Below, piece by piece: positions 1-24,030 of a stretch of 24,946 bases of DNA. Both the position numbers and the translations under genes were made by a program. How positions within the stretch are numbered: position 1 is the first letter of the stretch; every line of letters starts with the position of its first letter. The notes beneath the pieces were generated by a model that searched no databases, was not told the origin of the DNA, and worked only from the letters and a program-made list of their open reading frames with translations. Origin of the DNA: a virus; the IMG/VR virus record IMGVR_UViG_3300009285_004832, positions 1 through 24,946 of that record; one strand, given 5' to 3'.

Positions 1-66
1 AAAACTCAAACATTCAGAGGAACAGTAAGAGAATATTTGGAGGAAATTAAATTCAAAAATGAATAA
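1..66 (+). CDS. C-terminal end of an unknown protein (partial)
   Basis: An open frame enters at base 1 and reads 21 codons (ending ...EEIKFKNE) to TAA at 64-66, overlapping the next start codon by eight bases. The residues look protein-like (charged, helical), and a GGAGG at 39-43 inside the frame could serve the next gene. Too short to assign. It belongs with the thermosome fragment rather than the phage and may be the end of an archaeal gene. A chance open frame of this length is quite possible. Confidence 0.35.
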
Positions 67-508
67 AGACATCCAGCCGATATACATTCTGCCTGAAAGT
101 ACGACAAGAAATACCGGAAGGTCTGCTCAAAGAAATAATATTGCGGCAGCAAAATTAGTTGCTGAAACAGTAAGAACAACTCTTGGTCCAAAAGGAATGG
201 ATAAAATGCTTGTTGATGCATTAGGCGATGCAATAGTTACAAATGACGGAGCAACGATTTTAAGTGAAATGCAAATTGAACATCCTGCTGCAAGAATGCT
301 TGCTGAAGTAGCAAAAACACAGGAAGAAGTTATCGGAGACGGAACAACAACTGCTGCAGTTCTTGCAGGAGAATTATTGAAGCAGGCTGAATTTCTTTTA
401 GACAAAAATATTCATCCGACAATTATTGTGAAAGGGTACAGAATTGCCCAGGAAAAAGCTCAGACAATTCTTAAAAATATTTCAGAACCGATAAATGAAA
501 GAAATTAA
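59..508 (+). CDS. Archaeal-type thermosome (group II chaperonin) subunit, N-terminal fragment
   Basis: The 149 residues match the start of group II chaperonins: [20 protein letters not shown] (about residues 30-49), the nucleotide-binding VTNDGATIL and the [15 protein letters not shown] helix, then [11 protein letters not shown]. The order is that of the equatorial domain of archaeal thermosomes, which are ATP-driven cytosolic folding rings of about 540 residues. Intermediate and apical domains are absent: the frame stops at 506-508, and from about 495-519 the sequence becomes an unrelated phage gene on the same strand. Codons are A/T-rich, unlike the lysin gene that follows. Either a contig chimera or a fragment of archaeal DNA joined to a phage; a truncated chaperonin would not assemble. 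The family call is near certain; its biological presence here is doubtful. Confidence 0.9.
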
Positions 509-2403: not shown

Positions 2404-2567
2404 GAAAGCCAATTTCCTTCATTATCGCGGTTCTTATCATTCTCGGTATCTTTTGGTATGCTTGGAGCAAGACACGGGAAGAACCTACTGTGATATCAGA
2501 TATCAAGAAACCGAAAATAGAGACTCCTATAAAACAGTTTCCCTGCGAACCTGATTGCAAGGGTTGA
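2400..2567 (+). CDS. Small membrane-anchored protein of the lysis cassette
   Basis: 55 residues starting in the ATGA overlap with the holin-like gene. One N-terminal membrane segment (FIIAVLIILGIFWYAW, about 7-22) is followed by a short polar tail with two cysteines (PCEPDCKG) at the extreme C-terminus. Tight coupling to the holin suggests a lysis accessory role such as an antiholin or spanin-like subunit, but there is no lipobox and the tail is short for a spanin. The cysteine pair could form a periplasmic disulfide. Function not assigned. Confidence 0.6.
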   Translation: MRKPISFIIAVLIILGIFWYAWSKTREEPTVISDIKKPKIETPIKQFPCEPDCKG

Positions 2568-2573
2568 ACACCG

Positions 2574-2652
2574 CACTCCATTTCCGATATAGTGGCGAAT
2601 CGACCCGCCACGCTTCTTACTGAAATAATCGGAAATGGAATGGAGTGTTTTT
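2574..2652 (+). terminator. Nested hairpin followed by a T run after the lysis genes
   Basis: Outer stem: CACTCCATTTCCGAT (2574-2588) pairs with 2628-2647, 11 bp plus 7 bp around a five-base bulge AATGG that repeats its neighbour. An inner perfect stem GTGGCG (2592-2597)/CGCCAC (2606-2611) sits in the loop. TTTTT follows at 2648-2652, as in a rho-independent terminator. It begins seven bases after the stop of the 55-residue gene. The nested arm is more elaborate than termination needs. Confidence 0.6.
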
Positions 2653-2655
2653 GAA

Positions 2656-2789
2656 AGTTAAAGAGGGGGTGTTGTGGAACAGAGGTATTGGGCGTACTCC
2701 GCCAACACAACGGCACAAAATAAAATAAAAGAAGCCGAGTAATGCAACTCTCTCTTGCCGAGTATGTAACATGCTCCCCCTCTTTAACT
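2656..2789 (+). ncRNA. Structured noncoding element closed by a 14-bp stem
   Basis: AGTTAAAGAGGGGG (2656-2669) is an exact inverted copy of 2776-2789; two more pairs can form outside one mismatch. Inside, GTTGTG (2671-2676) can pair with CACAAC (2706-2711), and GCG/CGC closes a small arm within that; GCCGAGTA occurs twice as a direct repeat near 2733 and 2757. No coding frame runs through it and no T run follows. It lies between the terminator and the zinc-finger genes, so it could be their 5' leader or a free RNA. No known RNA family is recognised. Confidence 0.45.
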
Positions 2790-2818
2790 CTCGAAAAAGT
2801 GATTAGGTCTTTGACAAT

Positions 2819-3004: not shown

Positions 3005-3182
3005 ATTGCAGACCAACACGGTAAAATGCTTCACTTGCGAAGCGCATTTCCCACTCGCGTGGGTTCATCGCAAGCAATACGGCGCGTGCAGGAATGATTA
3101 CGCCTTCTTCTGCTCGGAGAAGTGCGCGGATGTATTCCGACTCAAAAACACCTACGAATATGAAGTACGAAAAACACCCTAA
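2994..3182 (+). CDS. Small zinc-finger protein, similar to its upstream neighbour
   Basis: 62 residues from ATG 2994, eleven bases before the end of the preceding gene; an in-frame ATG at 2952 would lie deep inside that gene. It has the same pattern as its neighbour: CFTC (about 12-15) and CSEKC (about 39-43) with FFCSxxCA/FFCSEKCA in common. Probable paired zinc-binding proteins; function unknown. Confidence 0.55.
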   Translation: MVTELQTNTVKCFTCEAHFPLAWVHRKQYGACRNDYAFFCSEKCADVFRLKNTYEYEVRKTP

Positions 3183-3309
3183 CAGGCCTGTCATCAGACA
3201 GTCCAAGATACTTCCACTACGAGTGCTGTACAAAGCGCCGAGGAGATTCAAAACGCTTCTGCGGCTGCTTGCCTTAAATGAGGCGGACAGGATGCTTCAT
3301 CGCGACTAG
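3160..3309 (+). CDS. Small basic protein, unknown
   Basis: 49 residues from ATG 3160, overlapping the zinc protein by 23 bases. Sequence starts MKYEKHPNRPVIR, very rich in Arg/Lys, ending EADRMLHRD. The stop sits directly before the terminator at 3311, which supports a real last gene of this operon. There is no clear ribosome-binding site, so translation would rely on coupling. Not recognised. Confidence 0.4.
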   Translation: MKYEKHPNRPVIRQSKILPLRVLYKAPRRFKTLLRLLALNEADRMLHRD

Positions 3310-3310
3310 C

Positions 3311-3345
3311 AGAGGGCGAGGGTTTAATTACTCTCGCTCTTTTTT
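3311..3345 (+). terminator. Rho-independent terminator between converging operons
   Basis: GCGAGGG (3316-3322) pairs with CTCTCGC (3331-3337) through one G-T pair, and flanking bases 3311-3315 extend the stem with 3338-3342. The loop is TTTAATTA and TTTTT runs to 3345. It ends the + strand lysis operon and overlaps the last codons of the - strand operon. Confidence 0.75.
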
Positions 3346-3460
3346 ATTCATTGTCAAAAATCCATCCCCATAATTTATTCGCAATTTTGAATGGAGCCTT
3401 GATTACTTCTACAATTATTTCTTCAACATCTTCAATATATTTTTCAGGTTCTTTCTTCAT
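3344..3460 (-). CDS. 38-residue protein, unknown
   Basis: Starts in an ATGA overlap with the upstream gene (ATG at 3460-3458, upstream stop at 3459-3457). The first half is acidic and helical (KYIEDVEEIIVEVIKAP), the second aromatic (KLWGWIFDNE): an amphipathic helix that could lie on a membrane or bind a partner. Last gene of the - strand operon. The overlap is the main evidence that it is real. Confidence 0.5.
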   Translation of the reverse strand: MKKEPEKYIEDVEEIIVEVIKAPFKIANKLWGWIFDNE

Positions 3461-3612
3461 ATAAGTTTCTTCCACTCATTACCTATTACGATTTTAGGCA
3501 GTTCGTGTTTGCGCTTAAAAGCCGCCCATTCGGTACGGGTCATATTGCGTTTCGCTTTGAATCTATCGCCTTTCCTTTTATACCACGCTTGTGTGTGTTT
3601 GGTGATTGGCAT
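3457..3612 (-). CDS. Small basic protein, unknown
   Basis: 51 residues from ATG 3612 (MPITKHTQAWYKRKG...); an earlier in-frame ATG at 3645 would overlap the preceding gene by 23 bases. Very rich in Lys, Arg and Trp (WYKRKGDRFKAKRNMTRTEWAAFKRKH), so probably nucleic-acid binding. No fold recognised. It begins 11 bases after the preceding stop. Confidence 0.5.
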   Translation of the reverse strand: MPITKHTQAWYKRKGDRFKAKRNMTRTEWAAFKRKHELPKIVIGNEWKKLI

Positions 3613-3622
3613 AAAAAGTATT

Positions 3623-3904
3623 TTAGCGGAATCCACGGTCGGCATTCTTGAACCAACTTTTTGCCCACTTTTCAGTATAATAACTACCTAAAGAAACTAT
3701 CCTAACCATGCTATCTTCCAGTGCTTTCCCTGGTTTTGGTCTTACACTCACATAATTCAAAATATACATTCTGTTGAAGTGATTTTTATGGAAACTACGC
3801 TTGAACTTTGCATCATCAGCCATAATACATTTTATCAGTTCGTATCCTTTATCTTCCCAGAACTTTCTCCATTTTTTAATTTCTGTTAAAGTTAATTTTT
3901 TCAT
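3623..3904 (-). CDS. Hypothetical protein, 93 residues
   Basis: Begins MKKLTLTEIKKWRKFWEDKGYELIKCIMADDAKF; mixed helix and strand, positively charged, with aromatic residues spread throughout (YILNYVSV, SYYTEKWAKSWF). No motif recognised. Co-directional with its neighbours, and closely spaced on both sides. Confidence 0.6.
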   Translation of the reverse strand: MKKLTLTEIKKWRKFWEDKGYELIKCIMADDAKFKRSFHKNHFNRMYILNYVSVRPKPGKALEDSMVRIVSLGSYYTEKWAKSWFKNADRGFR

Positions 3905-3913
3905 AATTATCTA

Positions 3914-4036
3914 CTAAAAGAATAATCTCGTATAAAGTCCTAATAAAAACCCCAACACAATCCCAATTATTAAACGACTTCTACCAACATATCGTAAGTC
4001 TGGTGTCCAATTTTCTTTTTTGGTTAAGTCTTTCAT
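3914..4036 (-). CDS. 40-residue single-pass membrane protein
   Basis: N-terminal polar part (MKDLTKKENWTPDLRYVGRSR) followed by one membrane segment LIIGIVLGFLLGLY (about 22-35) and a short basic-aromatic end. AGGCGG lies about ten bases before the ATG as a possible ribosome-binding site. No known family. A second frame (3981-4091) overlaps it and is less convincing. Confidence 0.5.
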   Translation of the reverse strand: MKDLTKKENWTPDLRYVGRSRLIIGIVLGFLLGLYTRLFF

Positions 4037-4092
4037 ATTCGTATTTCCGCCTTTTTCTAATAAGATTTAGTAGTTTCTTTTCCTCTTTCATA

Positions 4093-4746
4093 TTATGCTT
4101 CGTGTTTCCCTTCCACTCCACGTGCTATTCTGTCTACCGTCCGCATTGCAAGTGCGTGAAGCGCCCTTTTGAGATGTCCGATTGCTTCCACATTTTCCTC
4201 ACACTCAAACCGAGAATTAAGGTCTGCAAGCCGTGAGATAGCGCAACTGATTACTTCCTCCAAGGTCGTACCATTCTCATACGAACCATCGGGGTTCAGC
4301 TGGTAAAAAGTAATCTTCTGAAACTTCTGTGTTCCTTCTTTGTCGTCTGACGATGAATAGTCTCTCTTGAATTGCAAAAGAGCGTATTCGTTTTTTTCTT
4401 CTGGCATAGTTGTGTCCATAGTTGTATCCATGTTATTTTTACTAACTAATAATACTCCTCTCTCCTCCTCCTTAGTGATAATGGATATGGCTTTGGAGAG
4501 AGCGGAGTTGTAGCTAGAATAGTCTTTTATATTCGCTACTTGAATACTCCACGGGTCAATTTTTCCTGAAATACTTATCTTCATCCCCTCCAAACTCTTT
4601 ACGATTTCTTGGCGTTGCGAGAGGAGGAGAGAATGGATGAAGGATTTGAGTTTTCCTATCTTTATATCCCTACTATACTTGTCGTGTATTTCCACGAACT
4701 CGTCTAGTTTTTTCTCCCACTCCGTTTGTTTTGATAGGGGGTTCAT
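4093..4746 (-). CDS. Protein with C-terminal Acb2/Tad1-like hairpin domain (possible anti-defence sponge)
   Basis: 217 residues. The end (about 170-217) reads RLADLNSRFECEENVEAIG then HLKRALHALAMRTVDRIARG (191-210) and VEGKHEA. To my knowledge, the helix with RT-x-DR-x-x-RGVEG-x-H is the signature of the Acb2/Tad1 hairpin family, whose members bind cyclic nucleotides or cyclic ADP-ribose and so block CBASS or Thoeris. The first ~105 residues are helical and charged (FVEIHDKYSRDIKIGKLKSF) and unrelated; they join through a short repeat MDTTMDTTM (about 106-114), so this looks like a fusion. Starts two bases after the upstream stop. The family assignment is from memory of the motif and activity is untested. 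Confidence 0.55.
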   Translation of the reverse strand: MNPLSKQTEWEKKLDEFVEIHDKYSRDIKIGKLKSFIHSLLLSQRQEIVKSLEGMKISISGKIDPWSIQVANIKDYSSYNSALSKAISIITKEEERGVLLVSKNNMDTTMDTTMPEEKNEYALLQFKRDYSSSDDKEGTQKFQKITFYQLNPDGSYENGTTLEEVISCAISRLADLNSRFECEENVEAIGHLKRALHALAMRTVDRIARGVEGKHEA

Positions 4747-5027: not shown

Positions 5028-5340
5028 ACCTCTACAAGTGATTAGCTTTTAATTCCTCCAACCTCTGCATAATCTTACGCCGCCATTCTCCGCCGCCTGA
5101 ACAATTTTTGTTTTGCTTCCTTTTCCATAGTTAGAACTTACTGATAATACCGTTCATTTCCCGCCATGTACCCCCGTTTTAGCGCCACACTCGGCTGAAT
5201 CCCTACATTTCTCACAAGATGTTCGCTGTGAGCGTATGAAAATCTAAAACTGCGGGGGGTACATGGCGGGAAGCGATAAAAGGCTTGAAGCAGAAAGATT
5301 CCGGCCTTACGCTATGTCAGATGGATTAGGGTTTGCATAA
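5028..5340. other. Noncoding gap with a large hairpin and a possible gene remnant
   Basis: No frame spans this 313-base gap. On the - strand, 5122-5072 starts MEKEAKQKLF in one frame, and 5105-5039 continues in another frame as WRRKIMQRLEELKANHL ending at TAG; together they could be a short frameshifted gene. The rest is occupied by the inverted repeat at 5158-5272, with nothing recognised from 5273 to 5340. Confidence 0.4.
5158..5272. repeat. 18-bp perfect inverted repeat plus 7-bp extension, nested hairpin
   Basis: TTCCCGCCATGTACCCCC (5158-5175) is the exact reverse complement of 5255-5272. After a four-base bulge (TGCG), GTTTTAG (5176-5182) pairs with CTAAAAC (5244-5250). CTCACA (5211-5216)/TGTGAG (5227-5232) forms a hairpin inside the loop. 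Total pairing is 25 bp plus 6 bp. No T run on either side, so it does not look like a terminator. It could be a structured leader, an RNase III site, or a DNA cruciform/origin. Confidence 0.8.
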
Positions 5341-10310: not shown

Positions 10311-10976
10311 ATGCCACAAGGAATTTTTCCAAAAGGAAATAAGGGGGCGTTCAAAAAAGGTTTCATTCCTTGGAATAAAGGTATTCCCGTACCTGAAGAA
10401 CAGAAAAAACGACAAGCTAAAAGTATGACTGGAAAACTGGCGAAAGAAAAACATCCTATGTGGGGTAAACATCATTCGGAAGAAACCCGAAGAAAAGTAA
10501 GCATCGCAAAAAAGGGGGTAAAACTTTCACTAGAAACTCGCGCAAAAATGAGTAAGTCAAGAATGGGAAATACATACTGCGTAGGGAGGAAACTTTCTTC
10601 CGAACATATAAGAAAAATGCTTGAATCAAGAAAGGGCTACAGACACTCTGCCGAGACAAGAAGAAAATTGAGCATAACAAAGTCAAGAGGACTGACTGCG
10701 GTTTCTACTCTTATCCGTCATTCATTTGAATACCGACAGTGGGTATCGGATGTTTTTCAGCGCGATGATTACACTTGTCAAAAGTGCCGTGAGCGTGGAG
10801 GAAGATTGAACGCCCACCACCTAAAATCTTTCTCGCTTATTCTACGAGAGAACAATGTAAAGACATTTCTGGAATCTTTACAATGTGCTGAACTCTGGAA
10901 TATCAACAATGGACAGACACTTTGTATACGATGTCATAAAGAAACTGATACCTACCTAAACAAAACAAAAAAATGA
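10311..10976 (+). CDS. NUMOD3-HNH homing endonuclease
   Basis: 221 residues. Repeated NUMOD3-like units (HSEETRRKVSIAKKG, LSLETRAKMSKSRMG, LSSEHIRKMLESRKG, HSAETRRKLSITKSRG, about 55-130) bind DNA; the HNH core follows with CQKCRERGGRLNAHHLKSFS and LCIRCHKETD. Sits between the primase zinc finger and the ATPase with only one base before it and a four-base overlap after it. A/T-rich relative to its neighbours. Free-standing homing enzymes cut the same site in related phages lacking the gene. A related enzyme lies at 19956-20675. Confidence 0.9.
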   Translation: MPQGIFPKGNKGAFKKGFIPWNKGIPVPEEQKKRQAKSMTGKLAKEKHPMWGKHHSEETRRKVSIAKKGVKLSLETRAKMSKSRMGNTYCVGRKLSSEHIRKMLESRKGYRHSAETRRKLSITKSRGLTAVSTLIRHSFEYRQWVSDVFQRDDYTCQKCRERGGRLNAHHLKSFSLILRENNVKTFLESLQCAELWNINNGQTLCIRCHKETDTYLNKTKK

Positions 10977-13885: not shown

Positions 13886-14030
13886 AAGATTTAATTTTTA
13901 GCTACTAATTCAACCCCACTCACTGCTGTCGCGCTCCCGCGTGTGGTGGCGTGGTGAGCCGGTGCAGAGATGATGATAGGTTGCGGTGGTTTTGAGGCCT
14001 CCAGTGCGTACCCCACTTAGGTGAGGTGCG
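13886..14030. other. Structured spacer in the small-gene array
   Basis: 145 bases without a gene. CGCG-CTCC-CGCG hairpin (13930-13941) is nested inside CTCAC (13919-13923)/GTGAG (13954-13958). A second hairpin covers about 14003-14032, ending just at the stop of the next gene, with two G-T pairs and one mismatch. No promoter recognised. Confidence 0.5.
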
Positions 14031-14186
14031 CTAGGAAGATTCAATATCGTCATCGAAGACAAGTATAGTGCCGTGGTTCATTCTTTCTTGACTGTCCTTG
14101 ATTAAGTTTACGAGCTGGTCGACACGCTCTTGATTCTCCTTTAGCTTATCGGAATATATCTTGATGTTTTTTTTATCGGGTTTCAT
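14031..14186 (-). CDS. 51-residue coiled-coil protein, unknown
   Basis: IYSDKLKENQERVDQLVNLI (about 10-29) is a short coiled coil; the end is acidic (FDDDIESS). No known family. Flanked on both sides by strong hairpins. Confidence 0.5.
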   Translation of the reverse strand: MKPDKKNIKIYSDKLKENQERVDQLVNLIKDSQERMNHGTILVFDDDIESS

Positions 14187-14214
14187 AACAAAGTGCTAGC
14201 TAATAATTTCCAGC

Positions 14215-14302
14215 GTGGGCTGGGAATGTAGCAAGTTGCGGTATGCCGCATACGGATGTAACACATATTACGTTTTGGTTACTCGCTACATTCTCAACCC
14301 AC
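14215..14302. repeat. Three-way-junction-like inverted repeat
   Basis: GTGGGCTGGGAATGTAGC (14215-14232) pairs with 14285-14302 over 18 positions with one G-T and one mismatch. Two perfect hairpins lie inside: TGCGG/CCGCA (14237-14250) and GTAAC/GTTAC (14258-14282). Bases 14296-14302 are also part of the long-range repeat at 14296-14313, so the two pairings exclude each other. Confidence 0.7.
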
Positions 14303-14332
14303 ATTTCCGGCCTCTTGTTTGGTAAACGATTT

Positions 14333-14482
14333 TTACTTGTCGTAGTCTAGCAAAACTTCGTTACAATCTTCGCACTCCAGCGCAACCGCTACGATATTCT
14401 TCTTTGTTTTTCCGTAAGTTACACACGCAATCATGTGTCCCGCGTGTTGTTTGAGTTTTTCAAACATGATTTTGTTTTTCAT
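14333..14482 (-). CDS. 49-residue protein with CxxC motif
   Basis: MKNKIMFEKLKQHAGHMIAC then VTYGKTKKNIVAVALECEDC with NEVLLDYDK at the end. The ALECEDCxEVLLDxD ending recurs, to my recollection, in small phage proteins; one CxxC pair plus His residues could bind zinc. Function unknown. Confidence 0.6.
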   Translation of the reverse strand: MKNKIMFEKLKQHAGHMIACVTYGKTKKNIVAVALECEDCNEVLLDYDK

Positions 14483-14490
14483 AGTTTTGT

Positions 14491-14538
14491 CTTCACCTGC
14501 CCGCGAAAACCTATCCAGAAAGTCGCGGGCATGTGAAG
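14491..14538. repeat. 16-bp hairpin between two small genes
   Basis: CTTCACCTGCCCGCGA (14491-14506) faces 14523-14538 with one mismatch. The loop AAACCTATCCAGAAAG contains AACCTATCC, the same string found on the other strand just after the stop of the 15987-16397 gene. No T run. Confidence 0.7.
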
Positions 14539-14545
14539 AGATGGG

Positions 14546-14716
14546 TTAGTTGATAATTTTTTCTTCTGCGATTACTCTAACTTCGTGCAAACCGTTTGGA
14601 TAAATTGAAACGCGCTCATATCTATTTTCTGCGTACAATTTTTGTCGCATTTTTTGCACATTTTCTCTTTCTTCTTGCGTTTCGCAAGGCATTGTGTAGA
14701 CGATTTCTTTTTTCAT
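14546..14716 (-). CDS. 56-residue protein, unknown
   Basis: From ATG 14716 (MKKEIVYTMPCETQEEREN). Looks like a compact alpha/beta protein: helix ENVQKMRQKLYAENRY, then strands RVSIYPNGLHEVRVIAEEK. A longer in-frame start at 14761 would overlap the inverted repeat and is not preferred. The stop is followed by TAACCCATCT. Confidence 0.55.
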   Translation of the reverse strand: MKKEIVYTMPCETQEERENVQKMRQKLYAENRYERVSIYPNGLHEVRVIAEEKIIN

Positions 14717-14775
14717 AAGCCTATAAGTTAAAAGGCCGGAAATGTGGGTTCCTGTACTCAATACGTGGTCGGAGT

Positions 14776-14965
14776 TTGTTTGTAATTATTTGATTGGTCT
14801 TTTTGCAATGATTTCTTTTGCTTCTTTTTCGCTTGCGCAACGCGCAATTTCAACCTTGCCATTTACCCAGATGATATATTTCCCGTGATCGTGATAGATA
14901 AGATAATGATTGCGTCCTTTTATTATTGTCATATTGTTTGTGAGTTTATCTTGTTGTTTGTAATT
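14776..14965. repeat. 12-bp direct repeats around the 48-residue gene
   Basis: TTGTTTGTAATT occurs at 14776-14787 and 14954-14965, just outside the stop and start of the 14786-14932 gene, each preceded by GAGTTT at a slightly different distance. The repeats could mediate loss or gain of the gene. Confidence 0.65.
14786..14932 (-). CDS. 48-residue protein, unknown
   Basis: MTIIKGRNHYLIYHDHGKYI then IWVNGKVEIARCASEKEAKE and IIAKRPIK: beta hairpins followed by a helix, with a regular pattern suggesting a small stable fold. No family recognised. It overlaps the left direct repeat by two bases. Confidence 0.55.
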   Translation of the reverse strand: MTIIKGRNHYLIYHDHGKYIIWVNGKVEIARCASEKEAKEIIAKRPIK

Positions 14966-14968
14966 TTC

Positions 14969-15008
14969 TACGCTACCGGCAATCCGTTGCCGTTATACCG
15001 GTAGCGTA
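14969..15008. repeat. 11-bp hairpin with alternative inner stem
   Basis: TACGCTACCGG (14969-14979) pairs exactly with CCGGTAGCGTA (14998-15008). GGCAA (14978-14982)/TTGCC (14987-14991) can form inside, sharing two bases with the outer stem. No T run on either strand within ten bases. Confidence 0.7.
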
Positions 15009-15031
15009 CAGCAACCGATTGATGTTTTTTC

Positions 15032-15577
15032 TTAGTTGATTTTTGCAAATGGCTTGTCCCATTTTCCGATATTGATGTTTAGATAGAAATTGCAATGGAA
15101 GTAATCTATCTGTGCATCACTGTCGTCGTAGTTGAAACTGTTTGCTAGGTCTGCGGCGGCCCTTACTACTTCATAAGCTTCTTTCGTCAGGTATGCGCCG
15201 TTATTGTAGCCGTCAGCATATTCTTTGAATTGGTACTTATTGAGCTGTGCATATCCATAATCTCTGTCAGTGTAGATATTTCCATTTTTGTCTTGTTTGT
15301 GTTCCGTGTTGAACACTTCAAATGGCGCGGACATGAGCGCAAGATGCAACGATTGCCCGCCGGAGTATTTCTGAATGGTAGTTGAGAACGTACAAGCTGG
15401 GTATTTTTCTTTCAATTCCTTGCGTATGATTTTCGCGATATCGGCAATTCCTAGGTTGTTTGAGTAGCGTTTTCCTTGCGTTGCATATCCCGTGTAATTA
15501 AAACGGGGCTTTGTTTCGTTTTCCATAACTTTTGAAATTATCTCCGGCCACTTATCGAATACAGGTTGAGTTTTCAA
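15032..15577 (-). CDS. LPD29-like domain protein
   Basis: 181 residues from ATG 15577; ATG 15526 (MENETKPRFNYTGY) is an alternative start. DIAKIIRKELKEKYPACTFS then TTIQKYSGGQSLHLAL (about 45-80) matches the pattern of the LPD29 domain (helix, then KFSVxxxxYSGGxSI), found in phage and plasmid polyvalent proteins and as stand-alone genes. The rest is Tyr/Asn-rich (DGYNNGAYLTKEAYEVVRAA). These proteins are suspected to counter host defence or act early, but no activity is known to me. Confidence 0.55.
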   Translation of the reverse strand: MKTQPVFDKWPEIISKVMENETKPRFNYTGYATQGKRYSNNLGIADIAKIIRKELKEKYPACTFSTTIQKYSGGQSLHLALMSAPFEVFNTEHKQDKNGNIYTDRDYGYAQLNKYQFKEYADGYNNGAYLTKEAYEVVRAAADLANSFNYDDSDAQIDYFHCNFYLNINIGKWDKPFAKIN

Positions 15578-15600
15578 AGAACGGGGCTACTTGCGCCCTA

Positions 15601-15936
15601 ACAATTTGTAAGCAATGGCGAGGATGGGTTAAACACTTGCGATTAAGAAAGCTTTGAAATCTCCAACGCTTGCACGGCCTCCGTAGTAGTATTTTTCTCC
15701 GTGATGAAAGTATAAGCCGTATCGTGGCCCGAAGTTTCCCGATAAGTCCTTTGCATGGTCGTCTGGCTCTCCAACAAGGAAAGCGTTTGAGGCCATAGCT
15801 TCGGGTGGTAACACTTCCAGCATTTCGTAGTATTTTTCTTCTGGCACTTCATCTGTTTTTTGCATGAAGTCTGTTTGAAGTTTTTTTGATGTATCCCATT
15901 TCATATATTTTTGATTCGCTTTTGCTTACAAATTGT
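15601..15936. repeat. 15-bp inverted repeat enclosing one gene
   Basis: ACAATTTGTAAGCAA (15601-15615) is an exact inverted copy of 15922-15936. The arms lie 13 bases beyond the stop and 17 bases before the start of the 15629-15904 gene. Confidence 0.8.
15629..15904 (-). CDS. DUF1419-like protein
   Basis: 91 residues. EEKYYEMLEVLPPEAMASNA then FLVGEPDDH, followed by RYGLYFHHGEKYYYGGRASV, resembles the DUF1419 pattern (YxxMLxVLPP...FLxGEPxDH...), common in plasmids and phages and of unknown function. His and Glu are well placed for a metal or nucleotide site, but this is a guess. The stop is followed by TAACCCATCC. Confidence 0.5.
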   Translation of the reverse strand: MKWDTSKKLQTDFMQKTDEVPEEKYYEMLEVLPPEAMASNAFLVGEPDDHAKDLSGNFGPRYGLYFHHGEKYYYGGRASVGDFKAFLIASV

Positions 15937-15959
15937 CAAAGAACAGAGCGCGAACGCTC

Positions 15960-16425
15960 ACAATAGAACGGCAAGGCGTGGATAGGTTAGAGATAAAGAG
16001 ATGACCAATACTTTAGAGATTCCATATCCGCATTTTTGAAGTTGTTTATTGCGCGGTTACTCCAGTTTATTTTTGCGGCAATAAGTTTCTGGACGGTATC
16101 CGCTATCCAGCTTTTTTCTTCGGGCGCATAGTTTTTGTAACAGGCATAGCTTCGAATTTTTGAACTTTTGTCGCCGATATGGCTGATGACAATTTCAGAA
16201 AAGTTTATCGCGCTTCCTTTTTCTTTTTCAAGAGCATCGCAGAACTTTGTACAATCGCTGTCTTCTTCTAGATAAGCATTTTCGCCGCGCATATAGCTGT
16301 ACGACGATATATTATCCGCGATGCCTAGCTGTAGCAGTTTGGATTTCGGTACTTTAAGCCAGCCGTGTCCGGGGTCGTCATATTTATGATACTTCATAAG
16401 TTGAAACGCCTTGCTATTCTATTGT
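15960..16425. repeat. 19-bp imperfect inverted repeat enclosing one gene
   Basis: ACAATAGAACGGCAAGGCG (15960-15978) pairs with 16407-16425, with one G-T and one mismatch. The arms sit 8 bases beyond the stop and 9 bases before the start of the 15987-16397 gene. A separate perfect hairpin GAGCG-CGAA-CGCTC lies just to the left of the left arm. Confidence 0.75.
15987..16397 (-). CDS. Conserved phage/plasmid small protein, unknown
   Basis: 136 residues. Begins MKYHKYDDPGHGWLKVPKSK, then LGIADNISSYSYMRGENAYL and EEDSDCTKF. The GHGWLxVPxxxLxxLGIADxISSYSYxxGxxxYLEEDxD block is one I recall from many phage and plasmid accessory proteins without known function. First gene of the - strand array; its transcript should start near 16477 from the promoter at 16484-16512. 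A stop-proximal TAACCTATCC follows the gene. Confidence 0.65.
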   Translation of the reverse strand: MKYHKYDDPGHGWLKVPKSKLLQLGIADNISSYSYMRGENAYLEEDSDCTKFCDALEKEKGSAINFSEIVISHIGDKSSKIRSYACYKNYAPEEKSWIADTVQKLIAAKINWSNRAINNFKNADMESLKYWSSLYL

Positions 16426-16483
16426 CAATGTTCGGTGTTTGTGTTCTGATGAGGGTTTATGCGGTTGTACTGTATCTGATAAG

Positions 16484-17038: not shown

Positions 17039-17341
17039 GCCTCTAAACGCCCCGCCACGGCACGTAAAGCACAAAGCTGATGCTATGTAGTACCCCACGT
17101 TGCGCGGCACGTTTGGCGCAGGTTGCGATACTTCGCACCTCATTCGCATTATAGGGCTATGTAGAGCCGTATGTTTAATACTTCGTATAATGGATAAACT
17201 ACGAGGTACGCTGTTGATTATACGGCTATGTAGAGCCATATCGTTGCTTGGAATGTTGCGATGGGGGGGGTACACCCAAGTCGCCAATAGGAAAATAAAT
17301 ATACTTAGCCCCTCCCCAATTTTTTTCACTTTTACGACTTT
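17039..17341. repeat. Repeat-rich noncoding region before the terminase
   Basis: About 300 bases without a credible gene. GCTATGTAG occurs at 17082, 17156 and 17225; the last two form hairpins GGCT-ATGTAG-AGCC (17155-17168 and 17224-17237) with weak outer pairing. Other hairpins: TGCGC/GCGCA near 17101-17120 and TGCGA-TACT-TCGCA near 17124-17137. An inverted repeat TACTTCGTA (17179-17187)/TACGAGGTA (17200-17208) is noted separately. Being just upstream of the terminase small subunit, it may be the packaging recognition region. Confidence 0.5.
17179..17208. repeat. loxP-like inverted repeat
   Basis: TACTTCGTA and TACGAGGTA (one mismatch) flank a 12-base spacer. ACTTCGTATAATG (17180-17192) equals 13 consecutive bases of P1 loxP (left arm plus start of spacer), but the right arm diverges and the spacer is 12 instead of 8 when arms are aligned this way. 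No recombinase gene is in the window. Confidence 0.35.
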
Positions 17342-19561: not shown

Positions 19562-19989
19562 CAAACGCACAACAAGAAGTGATAGATAGTGTGAACGGAC
19601 TCGTCAAAGTAAGGGTCGCACCATCGCCTATTCACGGAGTTGGTGTCTTTGCTATGCGGAACATAGCGAAAGGAACAAAAATGTATATGACGATGTTCCC
19701 ACAGGCGTTCAAGATTCCGTTCGGGTCTTTTGGGAAATTGTATCCTGAAGTGAAACATCTTATCATGGAGAGGTGGCCGAGGGTGGTGAATAACGAAGGG
19801 TTTATGTACCCCGATACGCTCCTTCAGGCGTATGTGAATTTTAGTTTTACTCCCAATTATGATATGATTGATGATATTGCTTTAGAAGACATCTCTAAAG
19901 GTGAGGAGATAACCGAGGATTACCGAAAAAATAACGGGTGGGAAAAAATATATCCATGGATAGAGAACTTGAAAGAAGAAGAAAAATAA
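19558..19989 (+). CDS. SET-domain protein (putative lysine methyltransferase)
   Basis: 143 residues covering a compact SET fold: SPIHGVGVFA (23-32) and NIAKGT (35-40) as the N-terminal strands, YVNFSFTPNYDM (92-103) in place of the NHSCxPN pseudo-knot motif, and ALEDISKGEEITEDY (108-122) with the C-terminal Tyr122. These elements bind SAM and lysine in eukaryotic and bacterial SET enzymes. No post-SET cysteines. His of NHS is Phe here, so activity is uncertain. It lies in the packaging operon, which could mean modification of a capsid or host protein. Confidence 0.8.
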   Translation: MTNAQQEVIDSVNGLVKVRVAPSPIHGVGVFAMRNIAKGTKMYMTMFPQAFKIPFGSFGKLYPEVKHLIMERWPRVVNNEGFMYPDTLLQAYVNFSFTPNYDMIDDIALEDISKGEEITEDYRKNNGWEKIYPWIENLKEEEK

Positions 19990-20675
19990 GTGAAAGTAAG
20001 AAAGGACATGTTGTGTCTATCGAAACACGGCGCAAAATAAGTGCCTCACTTAAAGGTGAAAAACATTATTGGTTTGGCAAAAAACATTCTGAAGAAACAA
20101 AGCAAAAAATGAGGTTGGCTTGGGGAAATAGACCAAGGACATGGGTTGGTATGCCTCTTTCAAAAGAAGCCCGTGAGAAAATCAGTAATGCGCGTAAAGG
20201 AGTACTTTTTACGGAAGAACATAAAAGAAACATAGGTATAGCATCTCTAGGAAGGGTTCCTTCGTTGGAGACCAGACAGAAGATTAGTATTGCAGGAAAG
20301 GGGCGTTCTTTTACGATAGAACACCGTAGAAAGATTGGGTTTGCACAAAGAGGAGAAAAGAGTCATAATTGGGAAGGGGGTATCACTTCATTGAATAAGA
20401 TGATACGACACTCCATAGAGTACAAATTCTGGCGCACCCATATTTTCCAACGAGACAACTATACATGTCAAGATTGTAAGATTCGCGGTGGTGTAGAACT
20501 TCATTCCGACCATATTATTCCTTTTAGTTTTATTCTTGCTTCTTACAAGATTAAGACATTGGAAGACGCCTTAAAGTGTGAGTTTTTGTGGGACATCAGA
20601 AACGGCAGAACGCTTTGTATTCTTTGCCACAAAAAGACAAATACTTTTGGTTATAAAGCAAAAAATTATGTCTGA
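19956..20675 (+). CDS. NUMOD3-HNH homing endonuclease
   Basis: 239 residues from ATG 19956, overlapping the SET gene end by 34 bases; an in-frame ATG at 19938 is possible. Five or more NUMOD3-like units (SIETRRKISASLKGE, HSEETKQKMRLAWG, LSKEAREKISNARKG, FTEEHKRNIGIASLG, PSLETRQKISIAGKG) precede HNH residues CQDCKIRGGVELHSDHIIPF and LCILCHKKTNTF. Same family as the 10311-10976 enzyme but diverged. Inserted between SET and a zinc-ribbon gene with end overlaps on both sides. Confidence 0.9.
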   Translation: MDRELERRRKISESKKGHVVSIETRRKISASLKGEKHYWFGKKHSEETKQKMRLAWGNRPRTWVGMPLSKEAREKISNARKGVLFTEEHKRNIGIASLGRVPSLETRQKISIAGKGRSFTIEHRRKIGFAQRGEKSHNWEGGITSLNKMIRHSIEYKFWRTHIFQRDNYTCQDCKIRGGVELHSDHIIPFSFILASYKIKTLEDALKCEFLWDIRNGRTLCILCHKKTNTFGYKAKNYV

Positions 20676-23908: not shown

Positions 23909-23923
23909 GCACTTTGATAATTT

Positions 23924-24030
23924 AGAAAGCATCATAAACCTGGGGAGGGTAGGTTAGTTCCTCATACAGTTTGGTGATGCTTTCTGTATGAGGTACGAAC
24001 CGACTCTCTCAAGGGGACGGTTTTTTATTT
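23924..24030 (+). promoter_or_regulatory. Overlapping stems with terminator: pseudoknot or attenuator
   Basis: Stem 1: AGAAAGCATCA (23924-23934) with TGATGCTTTCT (23975-23985). Stem 2: CCTCATACAG (23960-23969) with CTGTATGAGG (23984-23993), extended by GGTT (23952-23955)/AACC (23998-24001). Stem 3: AACCG (23998-24002) with CGGTT (24018-24022), followed by TTTTTATTTTATT, a terminator. Stems 1 and 2 interleave; stem 2 takes bases from stem 3. This is the layout of a pseudoknot or of a terminator/antiterminator switch. The unpaired 5' part is G-rich (CTGGGGAGGGTAGG). Confidence 0.65.

Follow-up and report, generated by a model that had tools for sequence, protein, structure and literature searches.

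In a tailed phage contig from IMG/VR (record IMGVR_UViG_3300009285_004832), three long RNA helices, which we call A, B and U3, enclose small genes of the minus strand, and in A and B the 5' arm opens with boxA, which in the leaders of bacterial ribosomal RNA (rRNA) is the signal bound by NusB/S10 (PMC10250234). The contig is complete and was analysed at its full length of 24,946 bp, hereafter the window. This arrangement recurs around small genes and RNAs in other phages, and these findings suggest that phages route some of their messages through the path by which rRNA is produced. We lean slightly towards the view that A and B, together with U3, which has no recognisable boxA, are rRNA-style transcription and processing units in which an open reading frame (ORF) takes the place of the rRNA. 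The boxA elements, which a first-pass annotation of this DNA had not mentioned, tie the arrangement to the rrn operon.

Three long-range helices bracket small genes

A search for long-range inverted repeats, with arms at least 150 nt apart and a score of at least 14, returned A, B and U3 as the only ones in the contig, compared with approximately 0.3 expected per window by chance (60 dinucleotide shuffles of the whole window). The first-pass annotation had pointed to these three complementary arm pairs and to comparison with shuffled sequence as a check on them; the pairs are all present, and the comparison bears them out. The arms of A flank a 136-aa gene, those of B a 91-aa gene, and those of U3 two genes (Table 1). 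They lie close to the start and stop codons, as had also been noticed: the 5' arm ends 8 nt (A), 11 nt (B) and approximately 13 nt (U3) before the start codon, and the 3' arm begins approximately 7, 7 and 16 nt after the stop codon, respectively.

The duplexes formed by the 5' and 3' flanks had energies of -38.9 (A), -38.2 (B) and -42.7 (U3) kcal/mol, with z of -7.8, -9.6 and -7.5, and none of 2000 shuffles of each flank pair was as low. Pairing was also specific, as non-cognate combinations such as A5'-B3' only reached -19.5 kcal/mol. In a partition function computed for the whole 2,555-nt minus-strand RNA, the mean pair probabilities were 0.86 (A), 0.90 (B) and 0.98 (U3), and in each unit the leader and trailer strands are complementary in a helix of more than 17 bp. 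No enclosing helix was found for gene C, which follows B (arm test 10.5). An unguided screen for duplexes between the 5' and 3' flanks of every gene was not informative, since its results were dominated by GC-rich coding flanks.

The last 7 nt of the U3 3' arm (GTGGGTT) also belong to the 5' strand of the stem that follows (14281-14302/14215-14236), and hence the two pairings are partly mutually exclusive. Competition between the arm and the following hairpin could possibly act as a switch.

The arms of units A and B begin at boxA

Sites were scored with a boxA matrix derived from 27 leaders with a locatable 16S start, in genomes from the phyla of a Woesebacteria metagenome-assembled genome (MAG; Patescibacteria) and an Elusimicrobia MAG, which may not be the phylum of the phage host. 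The best site scored 11.5-19 in 22 of the 27 16S leaders, as compared to at most 10.2 in regions farther upstream, and the matrix iteration settled on leader variants, among them GTTCTTTGAAAAC and GCTCTCTGAAAAT. This matrix replaced an earlier test of a loose boxA consensus at the arms of the first loci, which had been weak because its search window clipped the boxA inside the arm.

When both strands of the window were scored, the four top sites were at 15944 (-), in unit B; 15582 (-), before gene C; 2806 (+); and 23909 (+). The maximum over 40 shuffles was 16.5, and the fourth site, at 11.7, is therefore not significant by score alone. All four sit in gaps adjoining helix-closed elements, those after the fourth having arms at 23924-23985 and 23939-24014 (+). 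In unit A, the degenerate GAACATTGACAAT occupies the equivalent place in the arm, and variants of the same type, GAACTTTGACAAT and GTACATTGACAAC, lie upstream of the 16S genes in loci L128 and L144. The strand order hairpin, boxA, leader is complete in B, with a 5-bp hairpin, and not in A or U3; C has a 4-bp hairpin and boxA without a helix.

Additional helix-closed noncoding elements were seen in intergenic gaps of the window, at 2567-2797 (+), 5158-5272 (-), 14215-14302 (-) and 23924-24014 (+). Their closing stems span approximately 18-31 columns, and none has an Rfam match.

The arms of A and B have changed in concert

Proteins A and B do not resemble each other. The junctions that follow the two genes nevertheless align (TAACCYATCCWCGCC ... 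GTTCTTTGANAA; score 19 vs. a shuffle maximum of 15), TAACCYATCCWCGCC being the sequence shared after the stop codons, and so do the leaders before the start codons (TTGACAAT.....AGCAA..GCG). In an alignment of the arms made by hand, 6 of 21 columns have changed on both sides between A and B with pairing retained (AT/TA, GC/TA, AT/GC, AT/TA, TG/AT and, innermost, TA/AT), while one position mismatched in A is paired in B and one paired in A is mismatched in B. Such concerted change with pairing kept is what the first-pass annotation had proposed to look for, and the arms of A and B therefore look, on this comparison, to be constrained as pairs. It had also described every arm pair as having a sequence of its own; this must be modified, since the flanks of A and B are homologous, having diverged in concert on both arms. 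The evidence from covariation covers A and B and the pair of homologues L190 and L193 described below. A search with the junction motif TAACCYATC..CGCC gave two matches only, both due to chance.

boxA retrieves helix-closed small genes in other phages

IMG/VR was scanned with the 16-mer of unit B, TGTTCTTTGACAATTT, and 80 loci in other viral contigs were readable. Each was tested for a helix with its 5' arm at -3 to +45 of boxA and its 3' arm at most 1.6 kb downstream, at a score of 16. A strong helix was found at 11 of the 80 loci, vs. 2 of 400 shuffles and 19 of 1896 positions upstream of ORFs (Fisher p = 7e-9), a control set that still includes true units. The partner arm was downstream of boxA in 12 cases (score at least 14) and upstream in none. 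A hairpin preceded boxA at 5 of 12 helix-positive loci vs. 9 of 68 helix-negative loci, and in 6% of shuffles. A second, matrix-based scan with a weaker test again found helices at high-scoring sites (L056, L060 and a second unit in L175). Among bacterial genomes, none of 11 exact boxA 15/16-mers, a small sample, had a helix score of at least 16.

Seven distinct units hold one small ORF (L177, L190, L193, L231, L211, L176 and L233), with 1-29 nt from stop codon to 3' arm; the arms of L206 are identical to those of L177. Where a Shine-Dalgarno (SD) sequence is used, the ribosome-binding site (RBS) sits between the 5' arm and the ATG. Thus in the SD-using phages (L233, L176, L193 and L211) 22-32 nt separate the end of the arm from the ATG and leave the RBS free in the loop, in contrast to 8-11 nt for A and B in the window, where few if any of the listed genes have a convincing SD. 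A terminator-like hairpin comes after the 3' arm in three of the units (L176, L233 and L231).

The proteins of L190 and L193 are 68% identical, with substitutions distributed 7/8/31 by codon position. Their arms are unrelated beyond boxA, yet each pair is complementary. Over nine units, the mean duplex energy was -35.9 kcal/mol for a unit's own arms vs. -9.0 kcal/mol for crossed arms. Neither the L193 nor the L233 protein has a relative in INPHARED.

The same layout encloses noncoding RNAs

ROOL is a noncoding phage RNA found near tRNAs (RF03087; PMC12286853). In L244, the entire RNA enclosed by a boxA-helix unit is ROOL, covering the whole model (1-574/574); the window units differ in enclosing ORFs, and RF03087 has no match in the window. 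The L244 unit extends over 3774-4385, with the exact boxA 16-mer as the 5' terminal arm of a 25-column closing helix. Units that hold structured RNA were also found in L056 and in L220, a relative of the window phage in replication genes. The boxA of L175 has a sigma-70-like promoter immediately upstream and is therefore within the RNA.

L175, a phage with a large tRNA array, carries two tandem boxA-helix units around tRNA-like RNA (reverse complement of 3040-3480), and a third boxA follows them. Long helices also close structured RNAs of 155-215 nt in L056 (809-1046), L018 (248-456), L023 (7272-7526) and L097 (721-925). They contain tRNA-like D-arm or T-arm motifs, with no ARAGORN call where this was tested. 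In the L056 RNA boxA is the 5' arm, and in L097 a boxA-like site precedes the RNA.

The chances appear to us evenly balanced that boxA with a leader-trailer helix is a general RNA module, present across many unrelated phages, which would send small genes, tRNA-like RNAs and ROOL through the host rRNA route and which in the window takes the form of tandem single-gene units.

A proposed mechanism and its rivals

By analogy with the rrn operon, host NusB/S10 (NusE) would bind boxA on the nascent leader RNA and keep the leader at the polymerase, with the ORF looped out while the polymerase reads on. The emerging 3' arm would then pair co-transcriptionally with the held 5' arm, and a leader-trailer helix of 20-30 bp would close the ORF into a discrete unit. 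This helix could be a site of RNase III processing, a shield of both ends from exonucleases, or both, and the boxA complex would be expected to resist premature termination. The outcome may be higher or better-timed expression of the small proteins. The first-pass annotation had offered mRNAs closed by 5'-3' pairing, for stability or RNase III processing, as one option, and at the level of anatomy this option is upheld, because the arms lie outside the ORF, pair specifically and covary between A and B, and because unrelated phages have the same layout, always downstream of boxA in the sense direction.

Several observations weigh against this reading. U3 has no boxA, the boxA of A is degenerate, and C has boxA and no helix. 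The hairpin before the boxA of B competes with the outermost pairs of helix A, and its pair probability in the fold is 0. Moreover, the helices of A and B run through boxA and end close to the start codon, so that NusB binding, ribosome loading and pairing would have to be sequential. The matrix iteration took the window motif as its starting point, a mild circularity, and no close relative was found in which the A, B and U3 units could be traced. The main rivals are a translational switch and plain RNase III helices.

An off-switch of the icaR or hok type, which we consider unlikely, would allow translation until the 3' arm is made, whereupon the helix would block initiation and RNase III would destroy the message. 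In the icaR mRNA of S. aureus, the 5' and 3' untranslated regions (UTRs) pair, a 7-nt anti-SD motif blocks translation, and the pairing creates an RNase III site (PMC3868564). The ends of helices A and B are likewise within reach of an initiating ribosome. However, in the SD-using phages the RBS stays within the loop, noncoding RNAs are enclosed in the same way, and a switch leaves the link to boxA unexplained.

Alternatively, the helices may only provide for RNase III processing or protect the ends, with the boxA-like sequence a coincidence or part of a promoter; this we regard as rather improbable. T7-like phages have RNase III hairpins between their genes, and helices without boxA occur at U3 and at several of the window's noncoding elements. 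Nevertheless, the boxA 16-mer alone retrieved helix units well above the 0.5% of shuffles and in a strict direction. As for a promoter, a sigma-70 reading of TTGACA in A and B was rejected: no -10 box is present at the right distance, 17 nt, and one of the boxA sites directly adjoins an ATG. The promoter of L175 also places boxA within the RNA.

The first-pass annotation had further suggested invertible cassettes or gene cassettes traded by recombination. That the unrelated genes A and B lie between homologous junctions indicates that some duplication or exchange of flanks occurred, but cassettes acting at the DNA level, by inversion or by recombination between inverted repeats, seem very unlikely, as the arms are not identical repeats and are unit-specific, with mismatches and G-U pairs, the neighbouring genes have no match to a recombinase family, the orientation relative to boxA is constant, and the same layout closes functional structured RNAs such as ROOL. 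Chance is scarcely credible: about one repeat of this strength would be expected per three windows, whereas three lie within 2.1 kb, each bracketing genes at their start and stop codons, with z below -7 and with covariation.

Comparison with known systems

The rRNA-style reading can be compared with what has been described for rrn operons, in which the order is boxB, boxA, boxC and then the trailer, a helix of more than 17 bp is required, and NusB is modelled to hold boxA until the trailer emerges (PMC10250234). The window units resemble this arrangement in the series of hairpin, boxA, leader strand, RNA and trailer strand, in a helix of approximately 20-30 bp whose 5' strand is at or just after boxA, and, as with 16S and 23S, in tandem units with boxA before each (the A/B and B/C junctions). 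They differ in that a protein gene is enclosed rather than 16S or 23S rRNA, the units are only 0.3-0.5 kb, U3 lacks boxA and the helix overlaps boxA itself. Because genes are enclosed, the window units would work like an rrn leader-trailer unit but are not one.

In lambda-type nut sites, which are likewise a use of boxA by a phage, boxB follows boxA and binds protein N; the window hairpin is instead 5' of boxA. No N-like gene was identified in the window, although no specific search for N was made. In suhB and some other genes, boxA is in the mRNA leader, as it is in the 5' UTR of the window genes, and suhB expression is repressed by SD occlusion; unlike the window genes, suhB has no described leader-trailer helix that encloses the gene (PMC5725501). 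The helices also differ from icaR pairing in being 20-40 bp long, mostly outside the RBS in SD-using phages, and linked to boxA.

The open-licence PMC literature contained no report of boxA with a leader-trailer helix in phage mRNA, the nearest subjects being rrn, suhB, lambda antitermination, icaR and ROOL/GOLLD. The first-pass annotation's remark that no such system had been described is thus correct for mRNA in the searchable literature, whereas the architecture itself is familiar from rRNA operons.

Genomic context and relatives

The contig carries a terminase and portal-like region on the plus strand and the small genes on the minus strand. No near relative was found in INPHARED. The terminase has relatives, at 55-59% identity, in numerous contigs of uncultured viruses and in a small number of MAG contigs from mixed phyla, and gene-enclosing arms were generally not seen in them. 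No relatives of genes A and B were found in the viral contigs searched; for gene A, relatives without arms are present in Limnohabitans phage DC31 and a Manatee Spring phage, and gene B has short similarity to a gene in a human gut phage record. Gene C encodes an LPD29-domain protein (PF18847, E 9.5e-11; phrog_10415). An Rfam scan gave no family match in the window, including the small-gene region.

Table 1. Features of the window, with position 1 as its first nucleotide
Feature	Positions	Strand	Basis or remark
5' arm (leader strand), unit A	16406..16434	-	inverted-repeat search, fold, arm comparison
Degenerate boxA GAACATTGACAAT, unit A	16421..16433	-	matrix score 9.2
Gene A, 136 aa, no known function	15987..16397	-	ORF list
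3' arm (trailer strand), unit A	15951..15979	-	inverted-repeat search, fold
Hairpin GAGCG-UUCG-CGCUC, directly 5' of unit B boxA, boxB-like position	15946..15959	-	fold
boxA GTTCTTTGACAAT, unit B	15932..15944	-	score 18.1, best site in window
5' arm, unit B	15916..15936	-	pairing continues outward through boxA with G-U pairs
Gene B, 91 aa	15629..15904	-	ORF list
3' arm, unit B	15601..15621	-	inverted-repeat search, fold
Hairpin GGGC-GCAAGUA-GCCC, 4-bp stem, directly 5' of boxA before C	15584..15598	-	sequence, fold
boxA GTTCTTTGAAAAC, before gene C	15570..15582	-	score 17.9
Gene C, LPD29-domain protein, ATG start assumed	15032..15526	-	PF18847, phrog_10415
5' arm, unit U3, no recognised boxA	14730..14750	-	inverted-repeat search, fold
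First U3 gene, 56 aa	14546..14716	-	ORF list
Local hairpin between the two U3 genes	14490..14539	-	inverted-repeat search
Second U3 gene, 49 aa	14333..14482	-	ORF list
3' arm, unit U3	14296..14316	-	inverted-repeat search, fold
Two abutting helix-closed noncoding elements, 2567-2649 and 2648-2797	2567..2797	+	inverted-repeat search
boxA GGTCTTTGACAAT, between the helix-closed element pair and ATG at 2819	2806..2818	+	score 16.7, third best
boxA-like GCACTTTGATAAT at stop codon, then helix-closed noncoding elements	23909..24014	+	score 11.7, fourth best

Some other features of the window were noted. Positions 59-508 (+) encode the N-terminal 149 aa of a thermosome-like group II chaperonin (PF00118, E 6e-48), which stops where the next gene starts; a 40% similar stretch is present in the related phage contig L070. 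This fragment may be a truncated host gene, a phage gene or an assembly join. Two HNH/NUMOD3-type genes resembling homing endonucleases lie at 10311-10976 and 19938-20675 (+), the second of which overlaps its neighbours. Two copies of GGCTCTACATAGCC, each with a TATAAT-like stretch after it, occur at 17150-17240 (-), upstream of the terminase genes, which are on the opposite strand.

Implications for phage gene expression

In rRNA, from which boxA and leader-trailer helices are known, the product is a fold and not a message. If our interpretation is true, phages make use, for mRNA, of the machinery that elongates and processes rRNA, which would widen the reach of NusB/S10 and would open a way to study how short phage mRNAs stay intact. 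The units would also offer a natural system of 0.2-0.6 kb, outside the ribosome, for the boxA tethering model of rRNA biogenesis. The layout provides a simple search rule for unannotated phage RNAs and genes, namely boxA followed by an arm with a downstream complement, and for at least one ROOL RNA it locates boxA at the 5' arm.

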